Assembly (NCBI GenBank): GCA_913064945.1
Contig: CAJYAN010000004.1
Coordinates: 174,001-238,000, forward strand
Reading direction: 5' to 3'
DNA: 64,000 nt
Origin: an uncultured Gammaproteobacteria bacterium
GTDB lineage: Bacteria; Pseudomonadota; Gammaproteobacteria; UBA6429; Thiohalophilaceae
Position numbers and translations under genes: made by a program. Below are positions 44,347 through 61,271 of the stretch, piece by piece. Positions within the stretch are counted from its first letter, which is position 1; every line of letters starts with the position of its first letter. The notes under the pieces were generated by a model. It did not search any database and was not told the origin of the DNA. It worked only from the letters and a program-made list of their open reading frames with translations.

Positions 44347-45666
44347 CTAGAGTTCGCATATAAAGACTTTGGATTTGCGCTGGTAGTTGTACATTGCCTG
44401 TCTCTTTACCGGCAATTGCTTAATGTCGGCCGGTTTAAAGCCGCGTTCACGAAACCAGTGCGCGGTCTTGGTCGTGAGGACAAATAGACGTTGTATGGCG
44501 AGTTTTACAGCCTGTTTCCTTATATATTGGAATAAGGCATCGCCGCGTCCGGCATCGCGATATTGGGGATGCACTGCCAGACAGGCGAGTTCAGCAACAC
44601 CTTCTTCAATATAGGGGTACAGTGCCGCGCAGGCGACAACGAGTCCATCGCGTTCCACGACAGTGAAGTAATCAATTTCCATTTCCAGGCTTTCGCGTGA
44701 GCGTCGCACCAGGGCACCGCTATTTTCCAGTGGCTCGATCAGCTCGAGGATGCCGCCGACATCTTCGATACTGGCCTGGCGAGTATCTTCAAAGGTCTCG
44801 GGTGTAATGAGGGTGCCGCAACCATCGCGGGTAAAGAGTTCCAGCAACAGGCCACCTTCGACCTCCCGGCCAATGAGGTGAGCACGGGGTACGCCGGACT
44901 GACAGGCATGGGCACAACTGCCGAGGGTCTTGATCACAGCAGAGGACAGCTTGCGCTTACCCTGGAGCAGGTCTTCGGTCTGCTTAACGGTAAGTTCGCG
45001 AATGATTTTTTTACGGCTATCGGTAATGCCTTTGCCATCGGTGAGGTAGATAAGCTTTTCCGCACCCAGTTCGATGGCGGCGGCAGTGGCGACATCTTCC
45101 ATGGCGAGGTTAAATGTCTCACCAGTAGGCGAATAGCCCAGCGGTGGTAGCAGCACAATGGCATCGTTATCCAGGTGCCAGTGAATGGCCTCAGTATCTA
45201 TTTTGCGTACTTCACCGGTGTGTTGGTAGTCGACTCCATCGATGACGCCGAGTGGCTGTGCTGTGAGCAGGTTACCGGAGACGACGCGAATCTGGGCTTT
45301 TTCCATAGGGGTATTGGCCAGCCCCATAGAGAGCAGGGCCTCGATCTCACTGCGTACGCTGCCGACGGCCTCTTTGACACAGACGAGGGCATTGGCATCG
45401 GTAATGCGGAGGCCGTTGACGTATTCCATGTCGGCATCTTGTGACCGTAGGCGTTGCTCGATCTGTGGCCGCGCCCCATGCACCAGGACCAGCCGTACAC
45501 CCAGGCTATTGAGCAGGGCGATGTCATGTACCAGGGTGGCAAACTGGGCATCCGCCAGCACCTCGCCACCAAAGGCGATGACAAAGGTGCGGCCACGGAA
45601 GGCATTAATATAAGGTGCCGAATCGCGAAACCATTGGACATAGCTGGTGGTGGGTGTCTGGTTCAT
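44347..45666 (-). CDS. argA: N-acetylglutamate synthase ArgA (kinase-like domain + GNAT)
   Basis: 439 residues. An N-terminal amino-acid-kinase-like regulatory domain (residues ~1-290; I-A-F-G-G-E-V and L-V-H-G-A-R) precedes a GNAT domain (~295-439) with P-Q-Y-R-D-A-G-R-G-D-A-L-F acetyl-CoA loop. It makes N-acetylglutamate, the first step of arginine synthesis, and classical ArgA is feedback-inhibited by arginine. Its companion genes argE, argF and argD are also in this window but in separate transcripts. Confidence 0.94.
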   Translation of the reverse strand: MNQTPTTSYVQWFRDSAPYINAFRGRTFVIAFGGEVLADAQFATLVHDIALLNSLGVRLVLVHGARPQIEQRLRSQDADMEYVNGLRITDANALVCVKEAVGSVRSEIEALLSMGLANTPMEKAQIRVVSGNLLTAQPLGVIDGVDYQHTGEVRKIDTEAIHWHLDNDAIVLLPPLGYSPTGETFNLAMEDVATAAAIELGAEKLIYLTDGKGITDSRKKIIRELTVKQTEDLLQGKRKLSSAVIKTLGSCAHACQSGVPRAHLIGREVEGGLLLELFTRDGCGTLITPETFEDTRQASIEDVGGILELIEPLENSGALVRRSRESLEMEIDYFTVVERDGLVVACAALYPYIEEGVAELACLAVHPQYRDAGRGDALFQYIRKQAVKLAIQRLFVLTTKTAHWFRERGFKPADIKQLPVKRQAMYNYQRKSKVFICEL

Positions 45667-45890: not shown

Positions 45891-45919
45891 ACGTCATACA
45901 GATTTCACGTACCTGTCAT
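45891..45919 (+). promoter_or_regulatory. Predicted Pho box upstream of the lipid-remodelling operon
   Basis: Three 7-base units, ACGTCAT (45891-45897), ATTTCAC (45902-45908) and CTGTCAT (45913-45919), are each separated by exactly 4 bases, the arrangement of the PhoB-binding Pho box (CTGTCAT repeats). It ends 37 bases before ATG 45957 and overlaps an in-frame ATG at 45918, which argues that 45918 is not the translation start. Confidence 0.7.
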
Positions 45920-45956
45920 GGGATCTTCATGCGGCGTATCCATAGTCCACCCTGTC

Positions 45957-47183
45957 ATGCCGTTGTTACCAATACAAGCGTTAACCAAGTGCGCCACGCT
46001 GCCATTGCGTGTCGCGATGGTAACGGAGACCTATCCGCCCGAGGTCAATGGGGTCGCTATGACTCTGCAGCGCCTGACAATGGGATTGATCCAGCTTGGT
46101 CACCAGGTAACGCTAATCCGCCCCCGACAACATACCTACGACCGGCCAGGGTGTTGCAAACAGCCGCGGACGGTCCTGGTCAAGGGGGCCACCTTGCCGG
46201 GCTATACCGAAATTCGTCTTGGCCTGACTAGTAAAGCGCGGATGTTACGCCAGTGGCAGGAAGATTGCCCGCAAGTGATTTATATTGCGACCGAGGGCCC
46301 GCTCGGCAGTGCAGCGCTGCGCGCCGCCAGACAACTGAACATCCCGGTGGTGACCGGTTTCCATACCAACTTTCACCAGTATACCCGTCATTACCGACTC
46401 AGCTGGCTGGAGCCGGTGGTCTGGTCGTATCTAAAAAAATTCCACAACCAGACTTACGCCACACTGGTGCCAAATCGCAAACTGGCGGATGCCCTGGAGC
46501 AGGCGGGTATTAACAATACTCGCATTCTTTCCCGCGGTGTAGATTGTCAGATGTATGACACGGCTCGCCGTGATCGACAATTGCGTTCTAACTGGGGTGT
46601 CGATGATGATGGTATTGTCATGCTCTACGTTGGTCGCATGGCGAATGAAAAGAACCTGATGCTGGCGGTGGAAAGTTACAAGAGTCTATGTCAGCAGGGT
46701 AATGTGGTCAGGTTTGTCATGATCGGTGATGGTCCACTCTATGAGAGCCTGTCACGCCAGCATCCGGAGATTATTTATTGCGGCTTCCAGCGTGGCAAGG
46801 ATCTGGCCCGTTATTATGCCTCGGCCGATGTGTTTGTCTTTCCAAGTGAGACTGAGACCTTTGGTAATGTGGTGCTCGAGGCCATGGCCAGTGGTCTGGC
46901 AATTGTGGCCTACAATTATGCCGCCGCGCAGATGCATTTAGAGGATGGGCTAAATGCCCGGCTGGTGACGCCGGGTGACCGCGAGGCGTTTATTACGGCG
47001 GTTTGTGAACTGGTCAAACAGCCGGAGGGTATTCGACGTCTGCGCGCCGGTGTCAGAGCGGTGGCCCTCGGCATTGATTGGTGCCATATCATTGATGAGT
47101 TTGTCAGTCTGTTAGTGGCGGCGGCCGATACCTCGCTGTCGGCGCAATCCCCTGACTTTCACAAAAAGTTCAACCACAGGTAA
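45957..47183 (+). CDS. GT4-family glycosyltransferase, candidate diacylglycerol glycosyltransferase
   Basis: 408 residues from ATG 45957 (421 if the 45918 ATG inside the Pho box were used). V-T-E-T-Y-P-P-E-V-N-G-V-A (N-terminal acceptor loop), Y-V-G-R-M-A-N-E-K-N-L and the E-x7-E box S-E-T-E-T-F-G-N-V-V-L-E-A-M mark GT4 retaining glycosyltransferases. This is the family that includes SqdX/MgtA and the Agt glucosyltransferases that use diacylglycerol under phosphate starvation. The Pho box in front, the PlcP-type gene 59 bases downstream and olsBA behind it support that role; the sugar donor is unknown. Confidence 0.8.
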   Translation: MPLLPIQALTKCATLPLRVAMVTETYPPEVNGVAMTLQRLTMGLIQLGHQVTLIRPRQHTYDRPGCCKQPRTVLVKGATLPGYTEIRLGLTSKARMLRQWQEDCPQVIYIATEGPLGSAALRAARQLNIPVVTGFHTNFHQYTRHYRLSWLEPVVWSYLKKFHNQTYATLVPNRKLADALEQAGINNTRILSRGVDCQMYDTARRDRQLRSNWGVDDDGIVMLYVGRMANEKNLMLAVESYKSLCQQGNVVRFVMIGDGPLYESLSRQHPEIIYCGFQRGKDLARYYASADVFVFPSETETFGNVVLEAMASGLAIVAYNYAAAQMHLEDGLNARLVTPGDREAFITAVCELVKQPEGIRRLRAGVRAVALGIDWCHIIDEFVSLLVAAADTSLSAQSPDFHKKFNHR

Positions 47184-47242
47184 GCCAGTTGTCATATTGG
47201 CGATTAATACTCATGCTAAATAAATAACATGGTTGTGTAGCT

Positions 47243-48058
47243 ATGACACCCATCTATCCCATGTTTGAAAATCGTTATCGCAGTATCTGGTTGTCGGATA
47301 TCCATCTTGGTTATCGCGGTTGCAAGGCGGAATATTTGCTGGACTTCCTCCAGACGGTCGAGTGTGAACGCCTCTATCTGGTCGGGGATATTGTCGATAT
47401 CTGGTCAATGAAAAAGAGTCTTTATTGGCCATCGTCACACAGCGATGTGTTGCGGGCCATTTTTGACAAGGCGCGGGCAGGGACTCAGGTGATTTATGTC
47501 CCGGGCAATCATGACGAAGCGTTACGCGACTATGATGGCATGCTTTTTGGCAACATCAAGGTTCGGAAAAATCACCTGCACACGACGGCTGACGGTCGTC
47601 GCATGTTAATCATGCATGGTGACGAGTTTGATAGTGTTATCCAGTGCAGCCGTTTGGTGTCGCTTATTGGTTGTATCAGCTATGACGTCCTGTTGTATAT
47701 CAATCGTATGCTCAATCATCTGCGTCGTCGCCTGGGTTTTTCCTACTGGTCGCTGGCAAGCTTCCTCAAGTCTCGTGTTGGTAGTGCCATGCAACATGTG
47801 AATAATTTTGAGAAGGCCGCTGTCTATGAAGCGCAACGACATGCCGCGCAAGGTGTCATTTGCGGCCATATCCACCACGCCGAGGCCAGAGAGATCGATG
47901 GCATCCTTTACTGTAATACCGGCGATTGGGTGGAGAATTGTACGGCGTTAGTGGAAAAGCAGGATGGCGGTATTGAGCTGTTACATTGGACGGAACAGAA
48001 AAGCTGCCTTAAAAGCATTACGCCAGACGAGTTTGATATAAACAGGAAGGTCGCGTAA
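47243..48058 (+). CDS. plcP: PlcP-type phospholipase C (metallophosphoesterase)
   Basis: 271 residues. Calcineurin-like metal motifs appear in order: S-D-I-H-L-G, V-G-D-I-V-D, P-G-N-H-D, M-H-G-D and G-H-I-H-H. The family is often labelled LpxH-like (UDP-diacylglucosamine hydrolase). However, R-G-C-K-A-E after motif 1 and Y-C-N-T-G-D-W-V-E-N-C-T-A-L-V-E near the C-terminus match the PlcP branch, which removes phospholipid head groups to give diacylglycerol during phosphate limitation in rhizobia and marine bacteria. Context supports this: GT4 genes on both sides and a Pho box upstream of the run. Confidence 0.78.
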   Translation: MTPIYPMFENRYRSIWLSDIHLGYRGCKAEYLLDFLQTVECERLYLVGDIVDIWSMKKSLYWPSSHSDVLRAIFDKARAGTQVIYVPGNHDEALRDYDGMLFGNIKVRKNHLHTTADGRRMLIMHGDEFDSVIQCSRLVSLIGCISYDVLLYINRMLNHLRRRLGFSYWSLASFLKSRVGSAMQHVNNFEKAAVYEAQRHAAQGVICGHIHHAEAREIDGILYCNTGDWVENCTALVEKQDGGIELLHWTEQKSCLKSITPDEFDINRKVA

Positions 48059-48084
48059 ATGACGAGGCTGTCAGAGGGGGGGCG

Positions 48085-48615
48085 ATGAATGCAAACAAAA
48101 TTATGCAACGTTGTTATGGTGTGGACCTGCGTCTGGTAGAGATTAGCAACCGCTTGTCATTACGCCGAGGCGTACGACCATTATTTGCCAGTATCAGTCG
48201 TCTCGGCGACGGCCTGTTCTGGTACTGCCTGATATTATTCCTGCCATTGATGTTTGGCCGGCAGGCGCTTAGCACCAGTCTGCAGATGACGGTGGCCGGA
48301 TTGCTGGCATTGATGATCTATAAGTGGATTAAGCAACTCACAGAACGTGCGCGTCCCTTTGCCGTGAGTTCGAGTATCTCTCTGGGCACAGCGCCCCTGG
48401 ATAAGTACAGTTTTCCTTCTGGCCATACACTTCACGCGGTGACATTTTGTCTGCTTGCCATACACGCGTATCCAGTGCTGGCCTGGGGACTAATCCCGGT
48501 GACGTTTCTAATCGCACTGTCTCGCGTTGTCCTGGGACTGCATTATCCTACCGATGTTCTGGCCGGTGCCACGATTGGCACTACATTAGCAACTGTCATC
48601 GTTCTGCTCTGGTAA
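48085..48615 (+). CDS. PAP2-family membrane phosphatase
   Basis: 176 residues with the three PAP2 motifs: K-x6-R-P-like in K-W-I-K-Q-L-T-E-R-A-R-P, P-S-G-H in S-F-P-S-G-H-T-L-H, and S-R-V-V-L-G-L-H-Y-P-T-D. Five hydrophobic helices make it an inner-membrane enzyme. PAP2 proteins remove phosphate from phosphatidate, undecaprenyl pyrophosphate or related lipids. Lying 26 bases after plcP and 13 before a glycosyltransferase, it could convert phosphatidate to diacylglycerol for glycolipid synthesis; this is inference. Confidence 0.85.
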   Translation: MNANKIMQRCYGVDLRLVEISNRLSLRRGVRPLFASISRLGDGLFWYCLILFLPLMFGRQALSTSLQMTVAGLLALMIYKWIKQLTERARPFAVSSSISLGTAPLDKYSFPSGHTLHAVTFCLLAIHAYPVLAWGLIPVTFLIALSRVVLGLHYPTDVLAGATIGTTLATVIVLLW

Positions 48616-48628
48616 TGAAGGAAGCTGC

Positions 48629-49837
48629 TTGAATATTTTGATGCTGTCTGATGTGTATTTTCCACGCGTCAATGGCGTGTCCACCTCGATAAAGACATTT
48701 ACCCATTCACTACGCAAAGCCGGCCATCGCGTCATCCTGGCCGTCCCTGAGTATGGTGTCTCAAGGCTTGTCTATTACGATAAGCTTGAAGATATTTACC
48801 GTATCCCGGCGCACCGCGTTATCCTGGATAAGGAAGACCGTTTACTGAATAGTCGTTACTTCGAGGAGCTGTTGCACCTGTTACAGGCCGAGAAGATTGA
48901 TGTTTTGCATATTCACACACCCTTTCGTGCTCACTACTGGGGCGTGCGCCTGGCGCGTGCGCTGGCCTGTCCCTGTGTGGCAACCTACCATACGTTTTTT
49001 GAAGAGTATCTGCATCACTACATCCCGCTGGTGCCACGCCGCTGGTTGCGGGCGGTAGCGCGACGTTTTACTGTTAGTCAATCACGTCAGGTCGATCAAT
49101 TAGTCGTGCCTTCGACGGCAATGCACGCCCTGTTGCAGGAATATGGTGTCAGTGATGCTATGCAGGTAATACCCACGGGTTTAAATTTGGCAGAGGTCTC
49201 GGGTGGCGACGGGCGACGCTTCCGCGAGGCACTCGGCATTGATGCAAACCGCCCGGTGATTGGCCATATTGGCCGACTCGCGCATGAAAAAAATATTGTC
49301 TTCCTGTTACAGGTATTAAATGAGCTCCGAGAAAAAACCCCGGACATCCTGCTACTCGTCGCCGGAGAGGGACCGGCCAAAAAAGATCTGCTTCGACAGG
49401 CAAATCGCATGGGACTGACGAAAAATATTATATTTGTCGGTTATCTATCGCGTGAACAGTCATTATGGGATTGCTACTGTGCCGCCGATGTCTTCGTCTT
49501 TTCATCCCGCACGGAGACACAGGGGCTGGTCCTGCTGGAGGCAATGGCGAGCGGCGTGCCCGTCGTGTCGACAGCCATTCTCGGTACAAAAGATATTTTA
49601 CTGCAGCAACGCGGTGCCCTGATTGCGGCAGACGCGGTTGATGACTTTAGTCAGAAAGTGGCCTTATTACTCTCGAACCCATTGTTACGTGCGACGCTGA
49701 GCCGTGAGGCACAGGCCTATGTGCACGAATGGTCAGACGATGAAATGGCGGCAAGACTGGAGCAATTTTATCGACGTGTCCTGCAGCAAGAGGCACTCCT
49801 GACGGACGAGGCCCTGCTGACAGAGAGCGGCCAATGA
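48629..49837 (+). CDS. Second GT4-family glycosyltransferase
   Basis: 402 residues from TTG 48629, with AAGGAAGC just upstream; the next Met (48641) is further from the site. M-L-S-D-V-Y-F-P-R-V-N-G-V-S-T is the N-terminal acceptor loop, I-G-R-L-A-H-E-K-N the middle signature, and S-R-T-E-T-Q-G-L-V-L-L-E-A-M the E-x7-E box. It is similar in type to the first GT4 gene but clearly not a recent duplicate. The two enzymes may act in sequence to make a di-hexosyl lipid, or use different donors. It is part of the rightward lipid run. Confidence 0.8.
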   Translation: MNILMLSDVYFPRVNGVSTSIKTFTHSLRKAGHRVILAVPEYGVSRLVYYDKLEDIYRIPAHRVILDKEDRLLNSRYFEELLHLLQAEKIDVLHIHTPFRAHYWGVRLARALACPCVATYHTFFEEYLHHYIPLVPRRWLRAVARRFTVSQSRQVDQLVVPSTAMHALLQEYGVSDAMQVIPTGLNLAEVSGGDGRRFREALGIDANRPVIGHIGRLAHEKNIVFLLQVLNELREKTPDILLLVAGEGPAKKDLLRQANRMGLTKNIIFVGYLSREQSLWDCYCAADVFVFSSRTETQGLVLLEAMASGVPVVSTAILGTKDILLQQRGALIAADAVDDFSQKVALLLSNPLLRATLSREAQAYVHEWSDDEMAARLEQFYRRVLQQEALLTDEALLTESGQ

Positions 49838-49950
49838 TGATAGTACGGCATACAGCGGGTGTTCACACAAGCTTCATTTAACTGCAAGAAAACCGACACA
49901 TTCCTCATCTATTTTTACATGAAGACATTACCGCGAATGAGGAAAATGAA

Positions 49951-50715
49951 ATGCCTACTGAAGCCCCGCCGTTTAAAGCGCAACAAAATGAAAACCGATT
50001 TGTTGTGACGCTGGCCACTGCACACGATAATATTGAAGCCTGCCTGCGTCTGCGTTATCAGGTCTTCGCCGAAGAACACGGTGCACAATTGAGCAGTGCG
50101 GCGACCGGCCTGGATAAGGACCTCTTCGATGATTATTGTAAACACCTGATGGTCTATGACAACCAGACGAAACAGGTTGTGGCAACCACTCGTTTGATTT
50201 CAGACGTCGATACCAGATTTACCAATGGTTTTTATTCTGAAACTGAATTTAACCTGGAAAATATTCTGGCTGTGCCTGGTCGATTTATGGAAGTGGGTCG
50301 GACCTGTATTCATCCGGAGTATCGACGCGGTGCGGTGTTGGCCTTGTTGTGGCAGGGCATTGCCCGCATCGTGAGCCTCTGTAAAATTGATTATTTGATT
50401 GGCTGCGCCAGCATCCCACTGACTGGAGGTGATCGCTATATCGCCTCCGTCATGCATCACTTGCGTAGCCATCATTTTATCCCAGCAGATAAGCGCGTGC
50501 AGCCACGGGTAGCACTGCCGCAGGCCGAATCCGTTGACGTCGATGACGTCATCCTGCCGACCCTGTTAAAAGGCTACTTACGCCAGGGGGCGTTGATCTG
50601 TGGTGAACCTTACTGGGATGCGCAGTTTGGTGTGGCCGATGTCTTTGTCCTGCTGGATACGGATAAGATTGCTTCGCGTTACCAGAAGCATTTTATTGAA
50701 CGACTATTGGCCTGA
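49951..50715 (+). CDS. olsB: Ornithine N-acyltransferase OlsB (GNAT-like)
   Basis: 254 residues from ATG 49951, with GAGG upstream. It carries the OlsB/GNAT-like core F-M-E-V-G-R-T-C-I-H-P-E-Y-R-R-G followed by L-L-W-Q-G-I-A and L-I-G-C-A-S-I. In other bacteria OlsB attaches a 3-hydroxyacyl chain from acyl carrier protein to ornithine, forming lyso-ornithine lipid. A PlsC/OlsA-type gene starts 4 bases after its stop, the standard olsBA order. PEP-CTERM/autoinducer-type acyltransferases share the fold, so the pairing is the main support for ornithine lipid. Confidence 0.82.
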   Translation: MPTEAPPFKAQQNENRFVVTLATAHDNIEACLRLRYQVFAEEHGAQLSSAATGLDKDLFDDYCKHLMVYDNQTKQVVATTRLISDVDTRFTNGFYSETEFNLENILAVPGRFMEVGRTCIHPEYRRGAVLALLWQGIARIVSLCKIDYLIGCASIPLTGGDRYIASVMHHLRSHHFIPADKRVQPRVALPQAESVDVDDVILPTLLKGYLRQGALICGEPYWDAQFGVADVFVLLDTDKIASRYQKHFIERLLA

Positions 50716-50719
50716 GATC

Positions 50720-51523
50720 ATGATGCTTTCAAGTCTACGTTGTGCCGTGCGTTGTTGTCGGGTCGCAGCTCACTTCGCCACCGGGGTCTATAAAATTCAG
50801 GCCCTGAAGCGTCGGCACGGTGAACAATGGCATACCAGCAAGATTGGCCGCCGGGCGATTCGACAGTGGATGCAACAGGCCTGTCGCATTATTGGCCTGC
50901 AAATTCAAATTACGGGAAATTTGCCTGAGCAGAACGGCCAGTTATATATCGCTAACCATGTCTCCTGGCTGGATATCATTGCGATTGCCTCGGTGACGGA
51001 TTGTAAATTTCTTGCCAAGGCGAGCATTCGTCACTGGCCGGTTATCGGCTGGTTCACGGCCTCGATGGGTAGCCTGTTTATCCGCCGTCATAACCGTCGC
51101 GCCTTCCACAAAAGTTTGCAGCGAGTGCAGGAGCGCCTACAGCAGGGTGCCAGTATCTGTATTTTTCCAGAAGGTACCACCAGTGATGGTCGACATGTGT
51201 TGCCGTTTCATAGTGGCCTGTTACAGTCTGCGATTGATGCCGAAGTCGCAGTACAACCTCTGGTACTCAAGTATGAAAACGCAGACGGCGAGTATGAAGA
51301 ACACGCACCTTATTATGGTAATCACGTGTTTGTCCTGCATATGCTGAAACTGCTTTGCCGACCGCAAACGCAGCTGAAATTGACCGTTTTACCCGCTATG
51401 CCACAGCAGACCGGGGCCGATCGACAAATGCTGGCCCGTGTACTTGAGCAACGCTTTAGCCGTGAGCTGGTCACACACCTGGAAAAAGTTGATCATCGTG
51501 TCGTGTTAGATCCGAGTTACTAG
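50720..51523 (+). CDS. olsA: Lyso-ornithine lipid O-acyltransferase OlsA (PlsC-like)
   Basis: 267 residues from ATG 50720 (ATG 50723 also possible); a start inside olsB at 50600 is rejected because it would overlap by over 100 bases. The acyltransferase motifs N-H-V-S-W-L-D (H-x4-D) and F-P-E-G-T-T-S-D-G-R are present, with a hydrophobic N-terminal region. OlsA adds the second acyl chain to lyso-ornithine lipid; PlsC phosphatidate synthases share the motifs. Placement directly after olsB favours OlsA. Last gene of the Pho-box-led run. Confidence 0.8.
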   Translation: MMLSSLRCAVRCCRVAAHFATGVYKIQALKRRHGEQWHTSKIGRRAIRQWMQQACRIIGLQIQITGNLPEQNGQLYIANHVSWLDIIAIASVTDCKFLAKASIRHWPVIGWFTASMGSLFIRRHNRRAFHKSLQRVQERLQQGASICIFPEGTTSDGRHVLPFHSGLLQSAIDAEVAVQPLVLKYENADGEYEEHAPYYGNHVFVLHMLKLLCRPQTQLKLTVLPAMPQQTGADRQMLARVLEQRFSRELVTHLEKVDHRVVLDPSY

Positions 51524-51537
51524 GATCGCACTAACGG

Positions 51538-52695
51538 TTACAGCGGCTTCACACAGTAATGCTGGATGGCGTGCCGGAGAAAGGCCACCGTGGGTTGCAG
51601 GCTGCTTTGTTCGATAAATTCATTGGGTTGATGGGCCTGGTCGATACTGCCTGGTCCCAGAATAATGGTCTGCATCCCCAGTTGCTGGAAGTAGGGACCT
51701 TCGGTACAAAAGGCAACGCTCTCGGCAGCATAACCGGTCATGGACTCCGCATACCTGACCAGTCCGGCATCGGCCGGGGTCTCCATGGCTTCAGTGCCTT
51801 TAAACAGGGGCGTCACGCGTGAGTTGAGTTGTCGCTGCGCGGCAATACGGCCGACGCGCTGGCTCAGTTCATGACGTAGTTCCGCCAGTGGCATGCCGGG
51901 CAGGGGACGCAGGTCGATATGTAATTCACAGTCGCCGCAGATTCGGTTTGGGTTATCACCACCGTGAATATGACCAAGGTTGAGGGTGGGATAGGGAATG
52001 ACAAAGGCCTGGCTGTGATATTTTGCCTGAAGTTCATCGCGCCACTGCAGTATCTCCGTGATCACCGCGTGCATGCCTTCAAGGGCATTATTGCCTAATG
52101 CCGGATTACTGGAGTGACCGGACTGACCCTGTAGATGAATGGCCTCCATCATGATGCCCTTGTGGGCGCGGATCGGTCGCATGCCAGTGGGTTCACCGAC
52201 AATGGCGTAACGTGCCTTGGGACGGCCCAACATGACCAGTTCTTCGGCACCGTTCATGCTGCTCTCTTCATCGGCGGTGGCGAGGATAATCAGTGGTTGT
52301 TGCAGGTCACCGGCCTTAAAGTCCCTGGCGGCTTCAATTGCGAGGGCGAGAAAACTTTTCATGTCGGCGGTGCCCAGACCATAAAACCGATGATCGCCCT
52401 CTGTCAGCGTAAAGGGATCAGAGCTCCAGCGGCCTTCGTCATAGGGGACGGTGTCGGTGTGCCCGGCGAGGACCAGACCGCCCGGTCCCGTGCCGAGCGT
52501 GGCAATCAGGTTGGCCTTGTTTGCTTGTGTCTTTAGAGGCAGCACCTCGACGCTAAAACCAAGTGTTTGCAGCCAGTCGGCGAGTAAGTGAATGACCCCC
52601 AGGTTGCTCTGATCAAAAGCGGGAGTGACACTGCTGACAGAGGGCGCGCCAATAATGCCTTGCAGCATTTGAATAAGTGTGGGTGTGGTCTTCAT
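51538..52695 (-). CDS. argE: Acetylornithine deacetylase ArgE
   Basis: 385 residues from ATG 52695 (GTG 52701 is an alternative). An M20 zinc peptidase: L-A-G-H-T-D-T-V-P (metal His-Asp), G-T-A-D-M-K-S-F (bridging Asp), T-A-D-E-E-S-S (catalytic Glu pair) and V-G-E-P-T-G-M. It removes acetyl from N-acetylornithine in the linear arginine pathway, agreeing with a stand-alone ArgA at 44.3 kb. It runs leftwards against the olsA gene, with 14 bases between stops. Confidence 0.93.
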   Translation of the reverse strand: MKTTPTLIQMLQGIIGAPSVSSVTPAFDQSNLGVIHLLADWLQTLGFSVEVLPLKTQANKANLIATLGTGPGGLVLAGHTDTVPYDEGRWSSDPFTLTEGDHRFYGLGTADMKSFLALAIEAARDFKAGDLQQPLIILATADEESSMNGAEELVMLGRPKARYAIVGEPTGMRPIRAHKGIMMEAIHLQGQSGHSSNPALGNNALEGMHAVITEILQWRDELQAKYHSQAFVIPYPTLNLGHIHGGDNPNRICGDCELHIDLRPLPGMPLAELRHELSQRVGRIAAQRQLNSRVTPLFKGTEAMETPADAGLVRYAESMTGYAAESVAFCTEGPYFQQLGMQTIILGPGSIDQAHQPNEFIEQSSLQPTVAFLRHAIQHYCVKPL

Positions 52696-52956
52696 CGGCA
52701 CAAGATAACGCCGGCACAGGACGCTATCAAGTCATAATGAAAAATATAAATGCCGACGAGATTTGAACAGGCACACCGGGTATGCTCAGTCGCACGACTG
52801 GGGAAACCTGTAACGCATCGCGTCGTTATCAGGGCAGCAGGGGCCAGCTAAAATAGATATCTCCACGGCCTTGACGGCGATGTGCACTTTGCGATTCATA
52901 CGGTTATTCATAGCATGGGCGACGAGATATCGACCGGACAGATCCGCCCAGAGACA

Positions 52957-53759: not shown

Positions 53760-53804
53760 GTGTCATACGACTGTCATATATTTAGTTTGTAATATGACTG
53801 TCAT
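53760..53804 (+). promoter_or_regulatory. Predicted Pho box upstream of phoB
   Basis: GTGTCAT (53760-53766), then 4 bases, then CTGTCAT (53771-53777) give two adjacent Pho-box units in perfect 11-base register. A further CTGTCAT is at 53798-53804 out of register. This points to PhoB autoregulation of phoBR. The phoB ATG follows at 53835. Confidence 0.72.
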
Positions 53805-53834: not shown

Positions 53835-54533
53835 ATGAGTCAAAATAGTGTAAGTGTACTCCTCGTTGAAGATGAAGAGGCCATTCGTGAAATGGTCAAT
53901 TTTTCACTGACGCGTGCCGGATTTTCGGTGACTGAGGCCGCCGATGCCAGTGTAGCGCAGAGTCTAATCGGTCAACAGCTGCCCGATATTGTGTTGCTCG
54001 ACTGGATGCTGCCGGGAATCAGCGGTATTGACCTGGCGCGTCGCTGGCGGCAGGATGGCCGTACTCAGCATGTACCGATTATTATGTTGACCGCGAGGGG
54101 TGAAGAAGAGGACAAATTGCGTGGTTTTGATATCGGGGTTGATGATTATATCACCAAACCCTTTTCAACCCAGGAACTGATTGCCCGCATGAAGGCCATT
54201 TTGCGTCGACATAGTAAGCCTGACGCCGATACCGTCCTGGTCGCCAGGAGTCTGAAGCTCGATACGGTAGGACATCGCGTCAGCGTGGATGGCGATTCCC
54301 TGACGCTGGGACCAACAGAATATCGCCTTTTACAGTTTTTTATGTCACACCCGGAACGGGTCTTTACCCGTAGTCAGCTACTGGATCAGGTCTGGGGTGA
54401 TGATGTTTATATTGAGGAACGCACGGTAGATGTACATATCAGACGTCTGCGAAAATTACTGGAGCCCTATGCCTGTGCCAAGTTTGTTCAAACAGTGCGT
54501 GGTGCTGGTTATCGTTTTTCACAACAGGTCTAG
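53835..54533 (+). CDS. phoB: Phosphate regulon response regulator PhoB
   Basis: 232 residues: receiver domain with acidic pocket V-E-D-E-E, phospho-Asp in L-L-D-W-M-L-P (near 55) and switch Lys in K-P-F, then an OmpR-type winged helix with F-T-R-S-Q-L-L-D-Q-V-W-G and V-D-V-H-I-R-R-L-R. W-M-L-P-G-I-S-G at the phosphorylation site and the recognition helix strongly match PhoB. phoR follows 6 bases later. It binds Pho boxes such as those found at 45.9, 53.8 and 57.2 kb. Confidence 0.95.
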   Translation: MSQNSVSVLLVEDEEAIREMVNFSLTRAGFSVTEAADASVAQSLIGQQLPDIVLLDWMLPGISGIDLARRWRQDGRTQHVPIIMLTARGEEEDKLRGFDIGVDDYITKPFSTQELIARMKAILRRHSKPDADTVLVARSLKLDTVGHRVSVDGDSLTLGPTEYRLLQFFMSHPERVFTRSQLLDQVWGDDVYIEERTVDVHIRRLRKLLEPYACAKFVQTVRGAGYRFSQQV

Positions 54534-54539
54534 TCTCCC

Positions 54540-55853
54540 TTGCAAAACGCGCTGCGCATAGAAATTGGTCGCCTGCTGGCCATCATTGCCTTTGCGGCGT
54601 TTCTGGGACTGTTTTTCGGTTATACCAAAATCCTTGTCTTGCTGGCACTGTCAGGCTATCTCATCTGGCACGCCTATTACCTCTGGGTGCTGGCACGCTG
54701 GCTATCCAAAGACAAGAAATACACACCGCCACCGGCCTACGGTATCTGGGGGGCGATTTTCGATGAAATCTATCGTCTGCTAAAACGACAGCGGCAACGG
54801 AACAAGCGTTTTTCGGAGTGGCTACACCGCTTCCGCGAAAGCACCAATGCCCTGCCGGAGGCCGTGGTCATTCTGCAAGAAGATGGTGAAATAGAATGGT
54901 GGAATAGTAATGCGGGCGACTGGTTGCGCCTGCGCTACCCACAGGATGTGGGGCAGCGTATTACCAATTTGATTCGTCTGCCGGAATTTTCCAACTTCTG
55001 GAATAACGGTAAGGAAGGTGATGCGGTCGAGATGCGTGGCCCGAATAATATGCAGCAGCATCTGCGTGTACGTCTCATTCCCTACGGCAATCAGCAAAAA
55101 CTGCTACTCCTGCGTGATGTCACGGTATTTTTCAGTGTCGAGAATATGCGTCGTGACTTTATTGCCAATATCTCCCATGAACTTCGCACCCCGTTGACCG
55201 TGCTAAGTGGTTATCTGGAAAACATGACAGTCGACGACGCTGGGCAGAAAAGCATTGAACCTGAATTGCTGGAGATGTCGGTAAACCGTATGCAACAACA
55301 GGTACAACGAATGTCGCGTCTGGTTGAAGACCTGTTGGTGCTGTCGAGACTGGAGTCCCCGGGGACAAATAAAAAAGAAAGTCTGGTCGAGGTGCCACAG
55401 TTACTGGCGGCATTGCAGGATGAGGCGCAGGTGATTAGCCAGGGCCGACACCAGATTATGTCCGAAGTGGATAACACGCTCTGTATTTATGGTACCCCCG
55501 GCGAGCTGGATTCGCTGTTTCGTAATCTGGTGATTAATGCGATTAACTACACGCCTAGCGGCGGGGCGGTGCGGATCCGCTGGTACCTGGATGGCGAGCA
55601 GCCCTGTTTTGAGGTGCATGATACCGGTGTGGGAATTGCCCGGCATCATATTCCGCGTTTGACGGAGCGCTTTTACCGTATTGATGTGGCGCGTTCACGC
55701 GAAACCGGAGGCTCTGGTCTGGGACTGGCCATTGTCAAACATGTCTTGCAGCGTCATAACGGCGTGCTATACATCGATAGTGAAGTGGGTCGTGGCTCGA
55801 CCTTTCGTTGCCTGTTCCCCAAAGAGCTGATCGCGCAGCGCGAGACATCATAG
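54540..55853 (+). CDS. phoR: Phosphate regulon sensor kinase PhoR
   Basis: 437 residues from TTG 54540 (no nearby ATG). Two N-terminal helices (~10-25 and 30-50) with almost no periplasmic loop, as in PhoR, then a basic linker, a PAS domain (~95-190; A-V-V-I-L-Q-E-D-G-E-I), the dimerisation/phospho-His segment I-S-H-E-L-R-T-P-L-T, and the catalytic domain with N-A-I-N-Y-T and G-G-S-G-L-G-L-A-I. It phosphorylates PhoB when phosphate is scarce; PhoU and Pst normally tell it that phosphate is sufficient. Confidence 0.93.
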   Translation: MQNALRIEIGRLLAIIAFAAFLGLFFGYTKILVLLALSGYLIWHAYYLWVLARWLSKDKKYTPPPAYGIWGAIFDEIYRLLKRQRQRNKRFSEWLHRFRESTNALPEAVVILQEDGEIEWWNSNAGDWLRLRYPQDVGQRITNLIRLPEFSNFWNNGKEGDAVEMRGPNNMQQHLRVRLIPYGNQQKLLLLRDVTVFFSVENMRRDFIANISHELRTPLTVLSGYLENMTVDDAGQKSIEPELLEMSVNRMQQQVQRMSRLVEDLLVLSRLESPGTNKKESLVEVPQLLAALQDEAQVISQGRHQIMSEVDNTLCIYGTPGELDSLFRNLVINAINYTPSGGAVRIRWYLDGEQPCFEVHDTGVGIARHHIPRLTERFYRIDVARSRETGGSGLGLAIVKHVLQRHNGVLYIDSEVGRGSTFRCLFPKELIAQRETS

Positions 55854-56289: not shown

Positions 56290-57009
56290 ATGGACAAATT
56301 CAATATCGGACATCACATCTCACAACAGTTTAATGCTGAACTGGAAGATATTCGCACACGCGTCATGCAAATGGGTGGCCTGGTCGAACAACAGTTACGG
56401 GATGCGGTTAAGTCGCTGGTCGAAATGGATGAAGCACTGGCGGAGATTGTTGTTACCAATGACTACAAAATCAATGCGCTGGAAGTTTCCATTGACGAAG
56501 AGTGTACCCAGATCCTGGCGCGTCGCCAGCCGACCGCCAGTGACCTGCGTCTGGTAATTGCCGTCATCAAGACCATTACCGATCTGGAACGTATCGGTGA
56601 TGAGGCTGAGCGTATTGGTCGCATGGCAATGCGATTCTCCTCGGAAAAAGGCAGCACCCGCATGTTGATGGGGATCCAGCATCTTGGTGAACACGTCATT
56701 AATATGCTGCACGACAGTCTGGATGCCTTTGCCCGTACCGATACGGAATCAGCCCTGACCGTTGCACGGAGTGACGCCAAGGCCGATCAGGAATACGAGA
56801 GCATTCTTCGTAATGTCATGACCTATATGATGGAAGACCCACGCTCCATTCCGCTGATGGTTGACATTATGTGGTCCGCACGCGCCCTGGAGCGTATTGG
56901 CGACCGCAGTCAGAATATTTGTGAGTACATTCTCTATCTGGTTAAAGGTAAAGACGTTCGTCATACCAGCCTGGACAAGGTAGAAAAAGACGCGCGTGGC
57001 GAAAACTAA
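56290..57009 (+). CDS. phoU: Phosphate-specific transport accessory protein PhoU
   Basis: 239 residues, two three-helix repeats carrying the metal-cluster E-x3-D pattern (E-R-I-G-D-E-A in the first and E-R-I-G-D-R-S in the second). PhoU is a peripheral protein that links the Pst transporter with PhoR and turns the Pho response off. ATG 56290 follows AAAGGAAAAGG. A factor-independent terminator follows the stop. No pst genes are in the window. Confidence 0.95.
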   Translation: MDKFNIGHHISQQFNAELEDIRTRVMQMGGLVEQQLRDAVKSLVEMDEALAEIVVTNDYKINALEVSIDEECTQILARRQPTASDLRLVIAVIKTITDLERIGDEAERIGRMAMRFSSEKGSTRMLMGIQHLGEHVINMLHDSLDAFARTDTESALTVARSDAKADQEYESILRNVMTYMMEDPRSIPLMVDIMWSARALERIGDRSQNICEYILYLVKGKDVRHTSLDKVEKDARGEN

Positions 57010-57064: not shown

Positions 57065-57237
57065 ATTTTCACTGCTGATTCATTGTTGTAAAGTCTTTTG
57101 CCCCTCGACTGGAGTTAGACGTATGACGGGGAGTGTCCATGCTGGTATTTCTGCCTGAGCATCAGTTAATCATAAAAGCTTTTTAATAATTTCTCTTTCC
57201 CCGCCTTTGGCGCTTGGCAGGCTGGCAGATCATAAAA

Positions 57238-57266
57238 CTGTCATATTGTGTTTATGCCAGTGTCAT
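57238..57266 (+). promoter_or_regulatory. Predicted Pho box upstream of porin gene
   Basis: CTGTCAT (57238-57244), TGTTTAT (57249-57255) and GTGTCAT (57260-57266) are three units, each separated by 4 bases: the same architecture as at 45.9 kb. They sit 83 bases before the porin ATG, leaving room for a -10 box and leader. Confidence 0.8.
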
Positions 57267-57349: not shown

Positions 57350-58435
57350 ATGAACAAGAAAATTATTGCCATGGCAGTGAGCACCGCCCTGGCCATGCCC
57401 GGTCTGGTCAGTGCAGTAGAGGTGGCTGGTAAGGCGCTTCAAGTCTATGGCCAGGTGCATATGAGCGTTGATTCTGCGACAAACCATGATGCAAGTGGTA
57501 ATAGTGTTAGCAAATTGAACATGTCCAGTAACTCTTCACGTCTGGGGTTTAAAGGTAATGGCGCTCTCGGTGGTGGTCTAAGCGGTTTTTATAAAATTGA
57601 AGCGGCAATATATGCCACGGTAGGTGACGGTGCACATGATTTTGCACACCGTGCTTCTATCGTCGGTCTGAAGGGTGATTTTGGCTCTCTGGCGCTCGGC
57701 TATCAGGATACCGTATACAAGGACACCTTTAAGAAATTCGATGTCATGGGTAATTCCATTGGCGATTCCCGAAATATCCTGGGTGAAGGGAAGTTTGATA
57801 AGCGCGCTAAAAATGGCCTCTATTATTATTCACCGAAGATGGGTGCCTTACAGTTGGGCCTTGGCTATTCAACTGCCTGGGAAAACAAGGCCATCAATGG
57901 TCAGAACAATAATAATAACTCTCTGACTGATGTTGTTTTGTCCTATAAAGCCGATGCGCTGAGCCTGGCTGTCGGGTATGAACAGCAGAAGCTCATTGGC
58001 GTCTCTGCGGTTAACAATGAATCCACTCAAACCATTACGGGTACCCGTTTGGTCGGTGGTTACAAGACCGGCCCCATGGACATTCGCCTGGTTTATGAGC
58101 ATGCGACAAACTCCGGTACGGATAAAAGTGCAAGTCTTAACCGTAATAACTATGGTGCCGCGTTGGTGTACAAGGTGGGAGGTCCCGGTTCTGTTATCTT
58201 ACAGTACATGAAAGCGGGTAAATCGGACGCGGGTAATGATGGTGCTAACCAGATTACCGTCGGTTACAGCTATGCGCTGGCGAAGAACTCAAAGACTTAT
58301 ATCATGTATGACAAAATCAGCAACGATGCCGGGGCAAGTTACGGAATTGGCGCTGGCCATGATCTTAGTTACAAAAACGCTGTGAATGGTAAGGACGTGA
58401 GTGCCATCTCTGTGGGTTATGTCTATAAGTTTTAA
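57350..58435 (+). CDS. General bacterial porin, likely phosphate-starvation-induced
   Basis: 361 residues: signal peptide with cleavage after V-S-A near residue 22, then a 16-strand-type barrel (alternating aromatics, S-R-L-G-F-K-G near the N-terminus, S-V-G-Y-V-Y-K-F with terminal Phe at the C-terminus). It belongs to the Gram-negative porin family and would form trimers in the outer membrane. A three-unit Pho box 83 bases upstream suggests it is a PhoE/OprO-like route for phosphate or polyphosphate. The pore selectivity itself was not read from sequence. Confidence 0.9.
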   Translation: MNKKIIAMAVSTALAMPGLVSAVEVAGKALQVYGQVHMSVDSATNHDASGNSVSKLNMSSNSSRLGFKGNGALGGGLSGFYKIEAAIYATVGDGAHDFAHRASIVGLKGDFGSLALGYQDTVYKDTFKKFDVMGNSIGDSRNILGEGKFDKRAKNGLYYYSPKMGALQLGLGYSTAWENKAINGQNNNNNSLTDVVLSYKADALSLAVGYEQQKLIGVSAVNNESTQTITGTRLVGGYKTGPMDIRLVYEHATNSGTDKSASLNRNNYGAALVYKVGGPGSVILQYMKAGKSDAGNDGANQITVGYSYALAKNSKTYIMYDKISNDAGASYGIGAGHDLSYKNAVNGKDVSAISVGYVYKF

Positions 58436-59168: not shown

Positions 59169-60077
59169 TTAACGTGTTGGGTTAAACAAATATTCCAGCA
59201 AGGCCTTTTGTGCATGCAGGCGATTCTCGGCCTCATCCCAGACAACGCTTTGCGGACCATCGATGATATCGGCAGTGACCTCCTCGCCGCGATGGGCGGG
59301 TAGGCAATGCATGAAGAGGGCATCGGGTTTGGCGAGTTTCATTAATTCGGCATTGACCTGAAAACCGACAAAGCTTTGTTCCCGTATATGCTGTTCCTCT
59401 TCCTGGCCCATACTGGCCCAGACATCGGTGGCAACCAGATCGGCATGACAGACGGCCTCGCTGGGATCGTGACTGAGTTTGATGCAATCACCGGCAGCAT
59501 TCATTACATCACGATTGGGTTCATAACCTGCCGGTGTGGCGATCTGAAGCGTAAAGTCAAACTGACGTGCGGCATTAATGTAAGAGTGGCACATATTATT
59601 ACCATCGCCGATCCAGGCGACGGTTTTGCCGGCAATATCACCACGGTGTTCAATATAAGTTTGTATGTCGGCGAGTAGCTGGCAGGGGTGATACATGTCG
59701 GTCAGGGCATTGATAACCGGGACAGAAGAATGCGCCGCAAATTTTTCGAGATTATCATGTTCAAAGGTGCGAATCATAATCATGTCGACCATGCGGGACA
59801 GGACCCGGGCGCTGTCTTCAATGGGTTCGCCGCGACCTAGCTGTGTATCACGAGGCGAAAGAAAAATGGCGTGACCACCAAATTGTGCCATGGCCGCTTC
59901 GAACGAGACCCGTGTGCGAGTGGAGGATTTGTCAAAGATCATTGCCAGGGTTTTATTTTTCAACAACTCGGGCGCATTACCTTTTTGATACTCCTGCTTT
60001 AGCGCTATGGCGCGTTGAATTAGTGACTTGAGCTGGGTTTTTTCAATATCGAGTAAGGTCAGAAAATGCACGGTCAT
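59169..60077 (-). CDS. argF: Ornithine carbamoyltransferase ArgF
   Basis: 302 residues. The carbamoyl-phosphate motif S-S-T-R-T-R near 52-57, the H-P-C-Q loop near 130, and the ornithine-binding [11 protein letters not shown] near 258-270 are intact. It makes citrulline from ornithine and carbamoyl phosphate. It follows argD by 18 bases, forming argD-argF. Confidence 0.95.
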
Positions 60078-60095
60078 CAGAGGACTCCTGTCCGG

Positions 60096-61271
60096 TTAGC
60101 CTTGCAGAAAATTCGCAATTAACTGGCTAACCTTGGTTGTGATTTGATCAGCGTCGGTATCGGTGATAATGAGCGCAGGTAGGAGGCGCACGACGCGCTC
60201 GGCTGTGACATTGATCAGAATGCCATTATCAATACCCTGTTTTACCAGTTCGGTACAGGGACGATCCAGTTCAATGCCGAGCATTAAGCCTTTATGGCGT
60301 ATCTGTACGACACCTTTTATATTGGCGAGCCTTGCCTGGAAATCAGCGGCGATACGATCGCCCAGAACCGTCGCGCGCTGTTCCAGTTTATCGCCCTCCA
60401 TGGTTTCGATCACCGCCAGCGCCGCGCTACAGGCGAGGGGATTGCCACCATAGGTCGAACCATGATTGCCGGGCATGAATACCTCGGCTGCCTTGCCGCG
60501 TGCCAGACAGGCACCAATCGGAACACCATTACCGAGCGCCTTGGCGAGGGTCATGACATCAGGCTGGATCGCATTATGCTGATGGGCAAACCAGCGGCCG
60601 GTACGGCACATGCCGGTCTGGATTTCGTCCAGCATCAGTAGCCAGTCGTGCTGATCGCAGATATTCCGCAGTGTATTTAAATACTGACTGTCCGGTATAC
60701 GAATGCCGCCTTCACCGGTAATCGGTTCGACCAGGATGGCGACGACATTGGTATTATTTTGTGCGACACGTTGCACCGCCTCGACATCATCGTAGGGGAC
60801 GCGCACGAAGCCCTGTACCAGCGGTTCGAATCCGGCCTGAATTTTGCGATTGCCAGTCGCCGAGAGTGTGGCCATGGTCCGGCCATGAAAGCTACCGTCC
60901 ATGACAATAATCGTCGGGACATCGATGCCTTTGCTATGACCGTATTTCCTGGCCAGTTTAATGGCGGCCTCGTTGGCCTCGGCACCGGAGTTGCTGAAAA
61001 AGACACGGTCCATAGCGGAGAGACGGCACAGACTATCCGCCAGTTGTGACTGTTTGGCGATGCTATAAATATTCGAGGTATGCAGCAGTTGACCCGCCTG
61101 CTCACAAATGGCCGCCGTGATGGCCGGGTGGGCATGGCCGAGTGCCGTGACGGCGATACCACCCAGGGCATCCAGGTATTCTTTACCATTGTTGTCCCAC
61201 AGGCGTGCGCCCTTTCCATGGGAAAAGGTGACGGCCTGTCGGACATAGGTCTGCATAATGTGATCGGTCAT
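60096..61271 (-). CDS. argD: Acetylornithine aminotransferase ArgD
   Basis: 391 residues. Class III PLP aminotransferase: N-S-G-A-E-A-N-E-A-A near 100, L-D-E-I-Q-T-G-M, the PLP Lys in T-L-A-K-A-L-G-N-G-V and S-T-Y-G-G-N-P-L-A near the end. It moves an amino group from glutamate to N-acetylglutamate semialdehyde in arginine synthesis and may also serve lysine synthesis. It leads a leftward argD-argF pair. Confidence 0.95.
   Translation of the reverse strand: MTDHIMQTYVRQAVTFSHGKGARLWDNNGKEYLDALGGIAVTALGHAHPAITAAICEQAGQLLHTSNIYSIAKQSQLADSLCRLSAMDRVFFSNSGAEANEAAIKLARKYGHSKGIDVPTIIVMDGSFHGRTMATLSATGNRKIQAGFEPLVQGFVRVPYDDVEAVQRVAQNNTNVVAILVEPITGEGGIRIPDSQYLNTLRNICDQHDWLLMLDEIQTGMCRTGRWFAHQHNAIQPDVMTLAKALGNGVPIGACLARGKAAEVFMPGNHGSTYGGNPLACSAALAVIETMEGDKLEQRATVLGDRIAADFQARLANIKGVVQIRHKGLMLGIELDRPCTELVKQGIDNGILINVTAERVVRLLPALIITDTDADQITTKVSQLIANFLQG

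Follow-up and report, generated by a model that had tools for sequence, protein, structure and literature searches.

A run of six lipid genes behind a predicted Pho box

We analyzed a 64,000-nucleotide stretch of DNA (the window; G000:C4:174001-238000) from a 3.2-Mb genome in 22 contigs, and focused on a run of six open genes at 45957-51523, all on the + strand, that forms a candidate system for making phosphorus-free membrane lipids. The genes follow one another as GT4-A, plcP, PAP2, GT4-B, olsB and olsA, separated in turn by 59, 26, 13, 113 and 4 bp, and their domains (Pfam, NCBIfam) are, in the same order, GT4, metallophosphoesterase, PAP2, GT4, OlsB-type GNAT (Acetyltransf_5) and PlsC-type acyltransferase. 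The first start is uncertain: the longest GT4-A frame opens at 45918, inside the Pho box ahead of the run, and we adopted the ATG at 45957. An earlier note on this DNA had described such a run in one direction with phoBR beyond it, and this layout held, all frames being open on the + strand and the families agreeing with Pfam and NCBIfam.

45891..45930, + strand: Pho box, four CTGTCAT-like units in 11-bp phase (three units 16/21, four units 20/28)
45957..47183, + strand: GT4-A, predicted Agt2-type diacylglycerol glycosyltransferase, start uncertain (47% identity to PA0842/Agt2 over 381 amino acids; tree SH-aLRT 99)
47243..48058, + strand: plcP, predicted PlcP-type phospholipase C (46.7% identity to the Pseudomonas aeruginosa plcP-locus protein; PlcP/LpxH split 100/100; motifs)
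48085..48615, + strand: PAP2 phosphatase, proposed phosphatidate phosphatase (PF01569, 79.9 bits; motifs; linkage to GT4-A homologues)
48629..49837, + strand: GT4-B, third GT4 clade, TTG start (clade support 100; model pLDDT 89.5, GT-B fold neighbours)
49951..50715, + strand: olsB-type ornithine N-acyltransferase (best NCBIfam match OlsB, 154 bits, cut-off 320)
50720..51523, + strand: olsA-type lyso-ornithine-lipid O-acyltransferase (best NCBIfam match OlsA, 140 bits, cut-off 300; motifs)

The metallophosphoesterase belongs to the PlcP clade

By sequence, the metallophosphoesterase gene belongs to the PlcP clade and not to LpxH. The P. aeruginosa protein to which it is 46.7% identical is encoded beside agt1, while its identity to Escherichia coli LpxH is 23.8%. 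In a tree, 34 PlcP-like and 8 LpxH-like rows parted with 100/100 support, and the window protein fell on the PlcP side. It scored 34.2 bits (cut-off 134) and 31.2 bits (cut-off 190) on two LpxH models that give E. coli LpxH 364 and 389 bits, so that the tree and the model scores together rule out an LpxH identity. The genome also encodes an LpxH of its own, which shares 49.6% identity with the E. coli protein. The metallophosphoesterase motifs DIH, GDIVD, GNHD, HGD and GHIH are intact, and the metal-site residues are invariant in a 19-row alignment. The earlier note had called this gene PlcP-type and named grouping with LpxH as the point that would tell against it; the tree and the separate LpxH bear the call out. 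A PlcP-like protein of Sinorhizobium meliloti pSymB was not accepted as the characterised S. meliloti PlcP.

Two other arrangements touch plcP. In L044:2344-5246 (G022) it stands back to back, divergently, with an OlsF-like gene that would encode a bifunctional ornithine-lipid synthase (434 bits where the cut-off is 620), and in G011 and G028 a similarly weak olsB match lies next to plcP.

GT4-A groups with Agt2

The P. aeruginosa homologue of GT4-A came from a search of plasmid records and is encoded directly after cerN, plcH and plcR. In PAO1 these are PA0845, PA0844 and PA0843 in a map of PA0842-PA0847 (PMC5150637), and because of this cerN-plcH-plcR order we took the homologue as PA0842 (Agt2). 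Agt2 is described as making glucuronosyl-diacylglycerol (GADG) from UDP-glucuronate and as using UDP-glucose to some extent (PMC8528852). A quick GT4 tree (116 rows, from 148 after dropping rows at least 72% alike; sets labelled from best matches) resolved three coherent sets: Agt2-like (39 rows, SH-aLRT 99), Agt1-like (39 rows, 97) and GT4-B (38 rows, 100). GT4-A falls with PA0842 in the first, and the Agt1 set stands apart from both window enzymes, which rules out an Agt1 identity for either. GT4-A thus groups with Agt2-type enzymes and is predicted to make GADG. Two nucleotide-sugar dehydrogenases in the genome exceed the family cut-off, and one resembles UDP-glucose 6-dehydrogenase (476 bits to TuaD, under the model cut-off of 700).

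It is very improbable that GT4-A is instead a GpgS-type enzyme making N-acetylglucosaminyl phosphatidylglycerol, a phosphorus lipid. Its best NCBIfam match is indeed profile NF053787, but the 155 bits lie far from the cut-off of 480, and the profile does not separate the two enzyme types, since proven Agt2 reaches 135 bits on it. In addition, P. aeruginosa is reported to carry gpgD and gpgF after gpgS (PMC12713373), whereas none of the six run genes matches the deacetylase or flippase families. We therefore dropped the GpgS identity, since the profile that suggested it is matched no better by a proven Agt2.

Two further loci bear on Agt2-like genes. In P. aeruginosa (L261:5089-9230), agt2 follows plcH-plcR and so lies beside an enzyme, PlcH, that can release diacylglycerol. 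In a plasmid-labelled record of Acinetobacter baumannii (L264:4774-6728), an Agt2-like gene is followed by PAP2, with a Pho-like site (17/21) upstream; the main text of a study of A. baumannii aminolipids does not contain the terms GADG, glucuronic or glycosyltransferase (PMC11828411).

The run carries a phased Pho box

Pho boxes were scored as matches to CTGTCAT repeated every 11 bp on both strands of the window, with dinucleotide shuffles (n = 2000) as control. The three units at 45891-45919 score 16/21, a value reached at 2 of 127,944 window positions and in 0/2000 shuffles of the 289-bp intergenic stretch; extended to four units (45891-45930) the site scores 20/28, reached at 2 of 127,922 positions and again in 0/2000 shuffles. 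The only other position that equals it (57227-57238) lies ahead of a porin gene. Its best two-unit score, 11/14, is reached at 13 window positions, among them 48593 within the last part of PAP2, and has a shuffle P of 0.02; by itself this score is unremarkable, so the call rests on the phased repeats. The three-unit box that the earlier note placed at the head of the run is thereby confirmed beyond chance and gains a fourth unit.

We then asked how often homologues of the run genes, at loci on both strands, carry a Pho-like site within 250 bp upstream, compared with random stretches of the same loci; the loci were the best-scoring fetched matches, and some are related to each other. Sites were enriched ahead of homologues of GT4-A (7/29; control 25/1450), olsB (10/29; control 24/1450) and plcP (4/27, with one more locus too short; control 14/1350). 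For PAP2 the counts were 2/9 against 12/450, and for GT4-B 2/29 against 15/1450. It weighs against Pho control that most scored homologues have no such site directly upstream (27/29 for GT4-B, 23/27 for plcP), in part because many of them are internal genes. From the box at its head we infer that the run is under PhoB control.

The phosphate-regulation genes lie beyond the run:

53835..54533, + strand: phoB (over the TIGR02154 cut-off with 340 bits; preceded at 53760 by a two-unit Pho box scoring 13/14)
54540..55853, + strand: phoR (NF008235, 440 bits; TIGR02966, 419 bits; both over cut-off)
56290..57009, + strand: phoU (NF008332, 348 bits, over cut-off)

Just past phoU, a porin gene (Porin_4; 57350-58435) has its own four-unit Pho box at 57227-57266, which at 20/28 equals that of the lipid run, and it is likely a phosphate-starvation porin. 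In other genomes, a PhoR match (40-50% identity) lies about 5 kb or less from plcP in L277 (G138), L163-L165 (G078, G211, G308) and L024 (G053); these genomes belong to three other families, so that phoBR lying close to lipid-renovation genes is a recurrent pattern.

OlsB and OlsA, and the extent of the transcript

The earlier note had also placed olsBA in the run. What stands is that OlsB and OlsA are the best NCBIfam matches of two adjacent genes; what does not is assignment by the curated equivalog cut-offs, under which both scores fall (154 bits against 320, 140 against 300). OlsA also exceeds the general lysophosphatidate-acyltransferase model TIGR00530 (115 against 102.95 bits), which likewise tells against a firm ornithine-lipid assignment. 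OlsA carries the HX4D and FPEG motifs, and the two genes, 4 bp apart here, are adjacent in several relatives too.

A further point of weakness is the 113-bp gap ahead of olsB, which together with a + strand sigma-70-like match (9/12; 49817-49844) at the GT4-B end could mean a separate transcript. We consider it doubtful, though worth keeping in mind, that the run comprises two or more transcription units, of which only GT4-A to GT4-B would follow the Pho box while olsBA had a promoter of its own. Modules in relatives often carry their own Pho-like site, as plcP, PAP2 and olsB each do in G138; on the other hand, no other site in the run matches the three-unit score of the box at 45891, and the scan lists no terminator-like site between GT4-B and olsB. 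The terminator and sigma-70 scans gave 6 terminator-like sites, about as many as shuffles (5.7), and 13 promoter-like sites, above the 6.6 of shuffles (sd 2.7); they are not interpretable gene by gene.

Parts of the run are linked in other genomes

To place the run among related genomes, we used five window proteins (all but OlsA) as queries against 370 genomes of the class at least 85% complete, many of them fragmented assemblies in which links can be missed. Counting the window's own genome, the number of genomes with a match was 65 for OlsB, 106 for PlcP, 44 for GT4-B, 45 for GT4-A and 66 for PAP2. GT4-A and PAP2 are often linked: of 40 genomes with both, 39 have them within 6 kb on the same strand and 34 adjacent on the same strand, always with GT4-A upstream; in the window, plcP sits between them. 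PAP2 adjoins GT4-B on the same strand in 14/30 genomes (GT4-B downstream in 12), olsB lies within 6 kb of GT4-A in 10/20 genomes with both, and in 16/35 PlcP and GT4-B are no more than 6 kb apart. Chance would give about 0.1-0.2 genome per gene pair. All five genes are chained by links of at most 6 kb solely in the window's genome, and four of the five in G007, G138, G325 and G261.

Among relatives, 58 genomes were searched, counting the window's; a strong PlcP match turned up in 24, and neighbourhoods were examined for 20 of the other 23. Within the same family, G010, G012 and G007 repeat GT4-A-plcP-PAP2-GT4-B, which matches the first four genes of the run and their order, and Pho-like sites lie upstream. 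These three differ from the window in that the fetched stretch has no close olsBA match; distant olsB-like genes lie downstream of GT4-B in G010 (39 bits) and G007 (no NCBIfam match) only, and were not counted as olsB. G003 has plcP-PAP2-GT4-B-olsB-olsA beside argA, where the contig ends in olsA, and in G020, G016, G018 and G005 plcP-agt1 faces PAP2-GT4-B.

A second recurring arrangement is olsB-olsA-GT4-A-PAP2 on one strand, found in Halochromatium glycolicum (L054), G245, G261, G282, G367 and G168. It shares these four genes with the window and differs in having no GT4-B in the run and plcP outside it, 5-7 kb off in L054 (5.6 kb), G261 and G282; plcP was not found within the fetched stretch of G245, G367 or G168. 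Of 80 named loci, four had an olsB match of at least 150 bits: H. glycolicum, Thiocapsa imhoffii (olsB-olsA-GT4-A-plcP), one Comamonadaceae genome (olsB-plcP-agt1) and one Burkholderiales genome (olsB-plcP).

The earlier note had proposed that the diacylglycerol and ornithine-lipid routes are joined here in one cluster, and the single run behind a Pho box agrees with this. Its companion claim, that other bacteria keep the routes separate, is not supported: further gammaproteobacteria, and betaproteobacteria as well, have combinations of these genes in linkage, and in P. aeruginosa the PlcP and Agt2 proteins and the olsBA operon, though unlinked, are all reported to rise at low phosphate (PMC8528852, PMC9804370). 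Two points temper the case for a joint system, namely that PlcP and olsB lie within 6 kb in only 4/36 genomes with both, and that sequence linkage does not prove expression.

Two arginine-biosynthesis genes flank the lipid run, argA at 44347-45666 and argE at 51538-52701. The latter is convergent with olsA, ends 14 bp past it and is, with an SH3-domain gene, one of the two - strand genes between olsA and phoB. With argF and argD 6.5 kb past argE (59169-61271), ornithine-making genes surround an ornithine-lipid cluster. In G003, G005, G071 and G302, too, argA lies beside or a few kb from such lipid genes, a closeness that may be an inherited position only.

PAP2 as a candidate source of diacylglycerol

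The PAP2 protein matches PF01569, has five hydrophobic segments and contains KX6RP, PSGH and SRX5HX3D, which we take to be the three PAP2 signature motifs. Because its gene is linked to the glycosyltransferases, adjoining GT4-A or GT4-B at 46 of 67 PAP2 places, we propose that it probably supplies diacylglycerol from phosphatidate. Family models point elsewhere: the best NCBIfam match is not a phosphatidate phosphatase but the undecaprenyl-diphosphatase SepP (62 bits, 250 needed), followed by PgpB (39 bits), neither score coming near its cut-off, and 21/67 places adjoin neither glycosyltransferase. These observations leave some room for PAP2 having a different lipid phosphate as its substrate, whether undecaprenyl diphosphate, phosphatidylglycerol phosphate or lipid A, and serving to spare phosphate or to recycle the carrier. 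We regard this as unlikely, given the pairing with the Agt2-type enzyme (34/40 genomes) and with GT4-B (14/30), both of which are expected to need diacylglycerol.

GT4-B may act on diacylglycerol itself

No characterised member was found for the GT4-B clade. GT4-B scores 122.8 bits on the alpha-monoglucosyldiacylglycerol synthase model NF049988, under its cut-off of 400. Its predicted structure has as nearest solved folds MshA, PimB' and BshA (GT-B fold, 16-23% identity), a comparison that reveals neither sugar nor acceptor.

Of the 44 genomes with GT4-B, 20 also have GT4-A and 14 have Agt1 (identity of 44% or more, E ≤1e-57), a single genome counting under both; in 11, neither turned up among the candidates scored (the best five per genome for GT4-B, the best four for GT4-A, which makes absences not firm). 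In three of the 11 (G057, G196, G262) the GT4-B match lies 15-18 bp from the plcP match. Since GT4-B occurs without a match to GT4-A or Agt1 in these genomes, and directly beside plcP in three, it may act on diacylglycerol itself.

From the two glycosyltransferases the earlier note had suggested a di-hexosyl lipid, and this receives no specific support: the characterised relative of GT4-A makes a monoglycosyl (glucuronosyl) lipid, and 11/44 genomes have GT4-B without a match to GT4-A or Agt1. That the two would work in series to give a di-glycosyl diacylglycerol seems to us the weaker possibility. In its favour, they share one run and are merely 30% identical to each other, and GT4-B mostly accompanies one first-sugar enzyme, 33/44 genomes having GT4-A or Agt1 and only one having both. 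The 11 genomes with neither, and the three in which GT4-B neighbours plcP, instead suggest a diacylglycerol acceptor, although the limited GT4-A search means that the absence behind this counter-argument is not firm.

Known parts of lipid renovation in one predicted Pho-controlled run

At low phosphate, P. aeruginosa is reported to make glycolipids with PlcP, Agt1 and Agt2 and to upregulate olsBA (PMC8528852, PMC9804370). Pho boxes are described ahead of both glycosyltransferase operons, and the PlcP and Agt2 proteins rise (PMC8528852, PMC9804370). The window shares PlcP, an Agt2-type enzyme and OlsBA with this lipid renovation. In P. aeruginosa, however, these are encoded in unlinked loci (olsA is PA4351; PMC5150637), with plcP beside agt1 and agt2 beside plcHR, and PAP2 is absent among the annotated neighbours of agt2; in the window they make up a single run that also holds PAP2 and GT4-B but no Agt1. 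Marine bacteria have plcP arrangements of types 1-6, beside glycosyltransferases or btaAB and under Pho-box control (PMC4796936), and the window resembles them in its adjoining glycosyltransferases and Pho box. The main-text section describing these types names btaAB, agt and other glycosyltransferases, but not olsBA or PAP2 (PMC4796936); in the same source, Phaeobacter MED193 and SAR11 HTCC7211 appear to be without phosphatidate phosphatase homologues. Neighbourhoods of plcP have also been described for methanotrophs (PMC9239053). Within open-licence full text, we came across no account of olsBA or PAP2 being linked with plcP or agt2. The run brings into one place the known parts of a regulon that is elsewhere scattered, together with PAP2 and a glycosyltransferase of a clade for which no characterised member was found; new in this survey are the pairing of PAP2 with the Agt2-type gene (directly following it in 34/40 genomes) and the nearness of olsB to that gene (10/20).

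Together, these results favour reading the run as a PhoB-controlled system making phosphorus-free membrane lipids, with a probability of roughly 0.8. Families, clades, the Pho site and the recurring linkage come from computation, and the enzyme steps are drawn from homology, save the phosphatidate role of PAP2, which is drawn from gene linkage. Upon phosphate shortage, PhoB would bind the predicted 45891-45930 box. PlcP, judged by its clade, would strip phosphorylated head groups from phospholipids and leave diacylglycerol, to which PAP2 would probably add diacylglycerol from phosphatidate, letting newly made lipid enter the route. By analogy with Agt2, GT4-A would move glucuronic acid, perhaps glucose, from the UDP-sugar onto diacylglycerol. 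GT4-B might make a second glycolipid, somewhat more plausibly on diacylglycerol than on a pre-formed glycolipid, and OlsB and OlsA would acylate ornithine to give ornithine lipid.

More tentatively, at odds we would put a little below even, the Agt2-type enzyme and PAP2 may form a conserved Pho-linked module across Gammaproteobacteria. In it PAP2 would be a dedicated phosphatidate phosphatase, allowing de novo glycolipid synthesis besides PlcP recycling; olsBA would be a frequent partner, GT4-B would add a glycolipid not yet known, and the window would gather all parts in one operon. If such a module exists, a glucuronosyl lipid is predicted in Acinetobacter. A P. aeruginosa plcP mutant is reported still to form some GADG, with the diacylglycerol source unexplained (PMC8528852). 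The module would be one general answer to that source, yet P. aeruginosa agt2 adjoins plcH, not PAP2. PlcP renovation in marine heterotrophs and phosphatidate phosphatases in cyanobacteria have been presented as alternative sources of diacylglycerol (PMC4796936), and a run holding both PlcP and PAP2 would make the question of alternative sources directly testable.

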